A DNA stretch of 64,000 nt from an uncultured Prevotellaceae bacterium (GTDB lineage: Bacteria; Bacteroidota; Bacteroidia; Bacteroidales; Bacteroidaceae): the NCBI GenBank assembly GCA_946625675.1, contig CAMOTI010000157.1:1-64000 (forward strand), read 5' to 3'. Positions 29,562 through 35,648 of this stretch are shown here, piece by piece. How positions within the stretch are numbered: position 1 is the stretch's first letter; each line of letters begins with the position of its first letter. Below the pieces are notes generated by a model. It saw only the letters and a program-made list of their open reading frames with translations. It was not told the origin of the DNA and made no database searches. The translations under genes and the position numbers were made by a program.

Positions 29562-29956
29562 AAGTTTGTATTTTTTTATTTCTTCTATTTCTTTCAACCA
29601 CCCTTGTATCTCAGCTCTAAACTCTAAACCCTCAACTAATAAAGTTACAAAATTACGAAAAATCCCCCACAACCACAAATAATTACATAAAAAACAAGCG
29701 CTCATGAAAAATCAGGGCAGACAAAACGGATATTCTTGCCTGTCCTGATGATTAAAAAGATAACGGATTTGTCTGAGTCTACCATGGGAAAAGCGTTCGT
29801 TTTAACGTCATTTTCTTTTCTGAATCGTACACAAAATCTTTGAAAGAAAACTATTAATCAAATATACCATCAACAAAGATAATCCCACGGCCTTCCAGGC
29901 TGGTAACCACCTCACCCCGCCCCACAAACCTCCCCGGTGTTGAGAGGATACCGCCC

Positions 29957-30036
29957 GTCTGACCCGTCCGACTTGTCCGACCCGTCCGACCTGTCTGACC
30001 CGTCCGACCCGTCTGACCCGTCCGACCCGTCTGACC
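29957..30036. repeat. 9-bp-period tandem array (GTCCGACCC-type unit)
   Basis: gtctgaccc gtccgactt gtccgaccc gtccgacct gtctgaccc gtccgaccc gtctgaccc gtccgaccc gtctgaccc. Confidence 0.92.
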
Positions 30037-30153
30037 CCATCACCAACATCCACTCTCAACTCCCCACCATAAAAATTGTAAAAACTACACTTATAAACCT
30101 TTCATTATCAATTACTTAATAAAAGTTAAAATTACAACTTTTCTACAAAAATA

Positions 30154-30185
30154 TTTGTTCGTCACAAAAAAACTTCGTAAATTAG
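30154..30185 (+). promoter_or_regulatory. Promoter of small transcription unit: TTTG-N20-TAAATTAG
   Basis: TTTG 30154-30157; TAAATTAG 30178-30185 (one mismatch to TAnnTTTG). Confidence 0.55.
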
Positions 30186-30191
30186 CACTCG

Positions 30192-30275
30192 AAAAGATCG
30201 GATGGTGTCCCGCCACCCGATAAGTTCAAACAAAAGGCCTATCGGGACTGTGGCCGTCTATGGAGGAATATTACT
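30192..30275 (+). promoter_or_regulatory. Structured 5' leader with mutually exclusive hairpins
   Basis: ATCGGATGG (30197-30205)/CCACCCGAT (30213-30221) versus CCCGATA (30216-30222)/TATCGGG (30240-30246). Confidence 0.5.
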
Positions 30276-30440
30276 ATGAAGACCGTGATGAACTATGACG
30301 ATGAGTCCTATGAACTCGACAACGTCTACAACGACGACGACATGTATGGCGAATGGTACGGATACCGTAACACGCCCGCTCAAACCGACGACACGCTCTA
30401 TCTAATCTCTGGCAACGAAACCTCGATATGGTACAACTAA
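30276..30440 (+). CDS. Unlisted 54-aa ORF, Tyr/Asp/Asn-rich peptide
   Basis: MKTVMNYDDESYELDNVYNDDDMYGEWYGYRNTPAQTDDTLYLISGNETSIWYN; GGAGG 9 nt upstream of ATG; own promoter and terminator. Confidence 0.65.
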   Translation: MKTVMNYDDESYELDNVYNDDDMYGEWYGYRNTPAQTDDTLYLISGNETSIWYN

Positions 30441-30460
30441 CACAAATCTAACAGGGAACG

Positions 30461-30498
30461 AAAGCCGCAGGCATCAGTGCCTGCGGCTTTCCTTTTTT
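30461..30498 (+). terminator. Strong terminator of the 54-aa ORF unit
   Basis: AAAGCCGCAGGCA-tcag-TGCCTGCGGCTTT perfect 13-bp stem then CCTTTTTT. Confidence 0.9.
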
Positions 30499-30588
30499 CT
30501 TTACTTATTTTGTCCTTCCAGGCAGGGCAACACGTTGTCGATTGCACCACCCCATCATGTATCTGTCTGACCCTTACCACAGCGACGT

Positions 30589-30759
30589 CTACTCCTCCGC
30601 GGCCAAGGCCTCGAGGAACGCCTCTTCCTCTTCCAGCTCCTCGCGCTCGCGGGCCTCGCCGTGGTCCACGCCCGTGCCGCTCACGGGAAGCTGCTCCAAC
30701 AGCAGGCTGCCCACTGCCTCATGCAGCACCGTTTCGGGTTTTTGATATGTTCGCTTCAT
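30589..30759 (-). CDS. Small peptide (56 aa), 'YxKP' family, paralog of 35353-35565
   Basis: MKRTYQKPETVLHEAVGSLLLEQLPVSGTGVDHGEAREREELEEEEAFLEALAAEE. Confidence 0.65.
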   Translation of the reverse strand: MKRTYQKPETVLHEAVGSLLLEQLPVSGTGVDHGEAREREELEEEEAFLEALAAEE

Positions 30760-30864
30760 CTTAATCTGTTCTGTTATATTGTTTTCTCTCAGAAAGTTAC
30801 AGTAAACAGCGAAAAGTCCATCCACAAAAGTAAATAAACTTTTCACTGTTCACTTTTTCACTAT

Positions 30865-35190: not shown

Positions 35191-35352
35191 ATCACTCAAC
35201 ATTTGTGCAAAATTAATGAAAATCCCCCACTCCGGCCTTGTCGGATAGTCCGATTTTCATGGAAAATTATTCAAAAAAAAACTATTACATAAAGAAAGGG
35301 GGGTCAGCACCATGCCGACTCTCCCCTTTCTTGATTTCATGATAAACAGTCC

Positions 35353-35565
35353 TTACCACAGCGGCCTCTGCTGCTCGGCAGCCATGGCCTCGAGGAACGC
35401 TTCTTCCTCTTCCAGTTCCTCGCGCTCGCGGGCCTCGCCGTGGTCAACGCCCGAACCGCTTACCGGAAGCTGCTCCAGCAGCAGGCTGCCTATAGCGTCA
35501 TGCAGCACCGTCTCCGGTTTCTGATATGTGCGCAATGCCGTTGTTTTCTGATATACTCGTTTCAT
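35353..35565 (-). CDS. Small peptide (70 aa), 'YxKP' family with internally repeated N-terminus
   Basis: MKRVYQKTTALRTYQKPETVLHDAIGSLLLEQLPVSGSGVDHGEAREREELEEEEAFLEAMAAEQQRPLW. Confidence 0.65.
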   Translation of the reverse strand: MKRVYQKTTALRTYQKPETVLHDAIGSLLLEQLPVSGSGVDHGEAREREELEEEEAFLEAMAAEQQRPLW

Positions 35566-35648
35566 TGTCTTATCTTCAAGTTTTTTTGTGAACAGCGAAA
35601 AGCCTATCCACAAATGTAAATAAACTGCTCACTGTTCACTTTTCACTT

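Follow-up and report, generated by a model that had tools for sequence, protein, structure and literature searches.

A conserved small-protein gene of Bacteroidaceae with a strong Shine-Dalgarno sequence and a putative kissing-hairpin leader

The analyzed stretch of 64,000 nucleotides from contig CAMOTI010000157.1 (hereafter, the window; all coordinates refer to it, and its source genome is 70% complete) contains a short gene that appears to be monocistronic, with its promoter box, leader, Shine-Dalgarno (SD) sequence, start codon and terminator conserved as one transcription unit. Sequence layout, conservation and codon selection thus bear out an earlier note on this DNA, which had described a self-contained unit with a real coding ORF. 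The explanation that we favor, at a probability of roughly 0.4, is that the gene encodes a small acidic, probably disordered regulatory protein, with output being controlled at the level of translation.

All elements of the unit lie on the forward strand. The promoter had been proposed as a TTTG separated by 20 nt from a second box, and this arrangement is confirmed: the -33 box TTTG (30154-30157) lies 20 nt from the -7 box TAAATTAG (30178-30185), which matches the TAnnTTTG form of Bacteroidetes weakly (5/6). The TTTG fits the family-wide TAnnTTTG box, which is correctly placed in nearly all family members. Transcription probably starts at about 30191. The strong SD sequence GGAGGA (30262-30267) has its GGAGG core 9 nt before the start codon of the ORF (30276-30440), which encodes exactly the 54-aa peptide given in the note, with 8 Tyr, 8 Asp and 2 Trp residues. 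The intrinsic terminator with its T run (30460-30498) has a perfect stem, as stated there, but of 14 rather than 13 bp (arms 30460-30473 and 30478-30491, loop TCAG, then CTTTTTTC). Both neighbors are encoded on the opposite strand, namely a large peptidase-like ORF that ends upstream of the unit and a small ORF downstream of it. A DNA similarity search within the genus yielded a sole convincing match, the sister genome G010 (L061), which is a MAG from the rumen of roe deer. Here, the unit (30186-30499) differs at 3 of 314 bases, whereas the flanks differ at 381 of 5258; the three differences are one synonymous change in the ORF, one change in the leader and one in the terminator loop.

The gene belongs to a family, named here YELDN/WYN, that we define by a YELDNxYN-like motif, an acidic linker and a C-terminal WY[NST] in an ORF of 34-54 aa. 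Its architecture is bipartite, with YELDNxYN near the N-terminus, a linker of variable length and SS[IV]WY[NST] at the extreme C-terminus, so that the full pattern reads (E)xYELDNxYN-[D/E-rich linker]-SS(I/V)WY(N/S/T). The window ORF carries ESYELDNVYN (residues 10-19, 30303-30332) and TSIWYN (residues 49-54, 30420-30437). Codons at the motif positions vary freely within the amino acid: leucine is encoded by six codons, and the invariant asparagine by AAC in 28 cases and AAT in 27. Codon differences in the family comprise 5972 synonymous and 5671 nonsynonymous ones, whereas random change would be expected to give 16% synonymous. Such free synonymous variation indicates that the ORF is translated and selected as a protein, and argues for strong protein-level selection at both ends (YELDNxYN and SS[IV]WY[NST]-COOH). 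This is the synonymous bias that the earlier note had proposed to look for; ORF and leader are both conserved in relatives, and frame-disrupting indels, named there as a ground for refutation, were not found in them. AlphaFold predicts no fold for the peptide (mean pLDDT 57, pTM 0.13). One subclade (L087, L088, L091, L092 and L178) keeps the N-terminal motif and the kissing leader described below and has lost the C-terminal WYN (e.g., ...SSFDLRYK).

The distribution of the family is patchy within GTDB Bacteroidaceae (Prevotella and its kin). A scan of genome contigs revealed relatives in rumen MAGs, in Prevotella sp. 885 and in the culturable Leyella lascolaii (L063, with an ORF of 38 aa). A profile search with the threshold E<=0.01 matched 30 of 399 Bacteroidaceae genomes, although a few of the lowest-scoring matches are probably false. 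Within single genera, the profile matched 40 of 200 genomes in one, 37 of 121 in another and 8 of 13 in the window's own genus. The gene had been called an orphan, a status contradicted by these homologs, which occur in dozens of Bacteroidaceae genomes. None were seen outside Bacteroidaceae, as the order-wide (295) and class-wide (198) samples matched the window's own genome only. The phages, viral contigs and plasmids searched contained no homolog that would mark it as a phage or plasmid gene. Across the family no neighboring gene of any kind is conserved, sharing being limited to subclades; in one of these (L062, L064, L142, L158 and L177), the gene is always flanked by an mnmA-like gene on one side and, on the other, by a conserved gene whose function is unknown.

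Searches with the peptide family gave no model at cut-off in Pfam and NCBIfam (the best stray match, DUF995 with E 0.05, is below its own cut-off), nothing credible in PHROGs and PADLOC (best PHROG E 0.029) and an empty result for a PDB profile search; a literature search by the peptide motif string gave no match. Rfam cmscan detected no match in the window at the gathering score, and the matches to family units and leaders were all below it, the accepted tRNA in L089 being outside the leader. The peptide family is therefore new to the databases searched and the leader element has no Rfam entry; abundant gut and rumen bacteria gain a small-protein family that the main databases lack and a kissing-loop cis element with covariation support.

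A strong SD sequence is kept across the family while ordinary genes go without it. GGAGG precedes 38 of 49 distinct family starts, which were picked partly by SD similarity among few alternative starts, versus 2 of 621 ordinary ORFs of at least 200 aa taken from their first ATG. By set, this background is 0/32 in the window, 1/200 in one complete relative and 1/389 in the flanks of other members, a rate of 0-0.5% that becomes about 1% if any ATG within the first 40 codons is allowed. The earlier remark that so strong an SD is abnormal for the phylum thus holds, and, as expected of an SD-dependent Bacteroidia gene of the rpsU/rpsR type, the strong SD is conserved above background. Bacteroidia ribosomes hide their anti-SD in a pocket of bS21, bS18 and bS6 and are held to be SD-blind; the best-known genes with an SD are rpsU, in Bacteroidales also rpsR, and other ribosomal genes in certain Bacteroidia (PMC9976891, PMC8710568). 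The window gene resembles rpsU (bS21) and rpsR (bS18) in being a rare strong-SD gene, its SD under selection, in bacteria with a sequestered anti-SD (PMC9976891, PMC8710568). In contrast to these autoregulated genes, its product is not ribosomal, being neither bS21 nor bS18; many members have a kissing-hairpin leader; the SD core is shorter than that of rpsU; and it comes from Bacteroidales, where bS21 autoregulation reportedly fails the criteria. With a conserved non-ribosomal family in which GGAGG is near-universal, the purpose of SD sequences in Bacteroidia becomes directly testable on a small gene.

On the strength of covariation, the leader consists of two hairpins and a loop-loop kiss, three helices compatible with one another. 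Hairpin H1 (30197-30221; stem ATCGGATGG / CCACCCGAT, loop TGTCCCG) exposes strand K, GUCCCG (30207-30212), and hairpin H2 (30236-30255; stem GGCC / GGCC, loop TATCGGGACTGT) exposes the complementary strand K', CGGGAC (30243-30248). The decisive evidence for this fold is comparative. In a structural alignment of 20 leaders, 92.1% of the pair cells are standard and 20 of 20 pairs have changed on both sides (7/7 in H1, 7/7 in H2 and 6/6 in the kiss); its covariation score of 0.81 compares with 0.21 for shuffled alignments (0/500 as good) and at most 0.18 for slid versions. The same two-hairpin layout is built from other letters in other members: GGUCUCU/AGAGACC in L067, AGUCUC/GAGACU in L098, GUCUCGG/CCGAGAC in L103, GUUCC/GGAAC in L113, GUGCUCC/GGAGCAC in L116, GCCUCCC/GGGAGGC in L089 and CCCCA/UGGGG in L075. 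Compensatory change is seen also between near relatives, L087 and L091 having UGCCGCA/UGCGGCA versus UGCCGUA/UACGGC in L088 and L092. In the window's own genus, L208 and L209 have GUCCC/GGGAC with different stems, as read by eye. In the alignment, K is biased to GUCYC and K' to GAGAC or GGGAC.

Since this alignment was made by hand and fitted to the structure, with some linkers shortened or padded with N, shuffling of each leader (300 dinucleotide shuffles) serves as the unbiased control. By this test, 19 of 58 leaders reach p<=0.01, versus 14 of 300 ordinary upstream regions, and for 12 of the 19 leaders none of the shuffles equals the real sequence; the kissing score of the window leader alone was reached by 6 of its 300 shuffles. 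A loop-swap permutation test (0/20000) was set aside as biased, because the loops had been chosen for pairing, and we rely on the shuffles and the alignment instead. The switch-like leader of the earlier note is upheld by covariation insofar as it is structured; its two mutually exclusive folds are not, H1, H2 and the kiss being compatible. The letters for the alternative pairing of CCCGAT with ATCGGG are present, but inspection by eye shows no conservation of them in relatives, and the sister genome has A in place of T30221. We rejected the two-state switch via CCCGAT: it looks window-specific, while the conserved long-range pairing is loop-to-loop and compatible with both stems.

About 40% of family leaders carry the kissing fold. 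The remainder are mostly shorter, the median distance from the -7 box to the start codon being 56 nt without the kiss versus 102 nt with it. Because the other 60% or so mostly keep the SD, the gene does not require the kiss. In nearly all leaders, pairing between the loops is predicted to be stronger than pairing of a loop with the SD, which would favor the kissed state by default, and leader structure seldom takes in the SD itself. A covariance model, R1, was built from N-padded leaders with the kiss left out and gives the window's own leader a score of only 17.7 bits; its search found known family members and none before other genes, a result of low sensitivity that does not imply absence elsewhere. 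A second, weak match to the model on the forward strand (35216-35314; 12.7 bits, E 0.46) is probably due to chance.

In ColE1 RNA I-RNA II, a complete loop-loop helix of 6-7 bp joins two small hairpins. The window leader contains a similar complete helix between small hairpins; unlike the ColE1 pair, its kiss is formed in cis, within one leader and beside the SD. Ribosomal protein leaders and translation-controlling riboswitches have a structured 5' UTR abutting the ribosome-binding site. The window leader is likewise structured and abuts this site; it differs from them in having no Rfam match and in forming kissing hairpins with no evident ligand pocket. A further parallel is provided by candidate structured RNAs of the human microbiome, cis RNAs directly upstream of a gene, some of them restricted to Prevotella (PMC8040213); at least those Prevotella-specific candidates that its text names are near uvrC, unlike the window leader.

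Under the favored explanation of a small regulatory protein with translationally set output, the strong SD would be read by ribosomes with an exposed anti-SD. As most Bacteroidia ribosomes hide theirs, such an SD is useful mainly to the exposed ones, and the peptide would be made mostly when these are present. Folded immediately 5' of the SD, the kissing complex would keep the leader locked and thereby unavailable for pairing with the SD region, and opening of the kiss by a ribosome, a protein, an antisense RNA or a ligand could change the output. The peptide may use its two short motifs to act on a partner in the cytosol that is encoded elsewhere. Several observations stand against this explanation: SD-anti-SD pairing in the window is moderate, with a 5-nt core, and weaker than in rpsU; Flavobacterium reportedly requires an extended SD (PMC9976891); introducing an SD brought no significant benefit in P. 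bryantii (PMC3155529); for folds without pseudoknots, the predicted accessibility of the SD covers a wide range (0.00-0.90); and the kiss is present in a minority of members. A further reading, which seems unlikely, makes the peptide an output, perhaps a feedback regulator, of ribosome composition in Prevotella-group bacteria; this non-ribosomal gene would then, across the family, be translated selectively by ribosomes with a free anti-SD, and the kiss would be an added gate.

The leader could instead be a riboswitch aptamer or a protein-binding leader, in which a metabolite or protein stabilizes the kiss and alters access to the SD. We regard this as doubtful. The conserved three-helix fold does adjoin the SD, its kissing strands have the sequence bias noted above, and pairing of the H1 loop with the SD region can be good in a few leaders, such as L089 (-10.7 kcal/mol), L113 (-7.6) and L116 (-6.8). 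However, while the pairs covary, few unpaired positions that could form a ligand pocket are conserved apart from the kissing helix, the fold is missing from most family members, and it was not found before other genes by the model of low sensitivity. It is improbable, too, that the leader merely stabilizes or insulates the mRNA, with constitutive translation and an SD that offsets nearby structure. Kissing folds in general resist 5' decay, and the SD is seldom inside structure; translation in Prevotella is reportedly inhibited by secondary structure (PMC3155529). Still, family members with short unstructured leaders keep the SD, so offsetting structure is not what it is there for.

The peptide itself might be a RiPP-like precursor with YELDN as a conserved leader, SSIWYN as a modified C-terminus and enzymes encoded elsewhere in the genome. 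Its small size, the conservation of both ends around a hypervariable linker and the conserved C-terminal aromatic pair would suit such a role, which is nevertheless very unlikely: there are no adjacent modification or transport genes or any conserved neighbor, and the C-terminal motif is nearly constant rather than diversified and is lost in the subclade of L087 with the rest of the peptide kept. Most improbable is a mainly regulatory RNA (sRNA) with a dispensable ORF. A compact unit with its own promoter, terminator and structured 5' end would be consistent with it, but codon analysis, by pointing to selection on amino acids, largely refutes it, and most members lack the RNA fold yet retain the protein motifs.

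Two further features lie near the unit. A tandem 9-base repeat with the approximate consensus CCCGTCYGA (at least 8 copies, 29945-30045) separates it from the upstream ORF. On the minus strand, the paralogous small ORFs at 30589-30846 and 35353-35613 have in common YQKPETVLH...GSLLLEQLPVSG.GVDHGEAREREELEEEEAFLEA, and each adjoins a large ORF with a sorting-like C-terminal end (...GIYIVNGKKVVIK).
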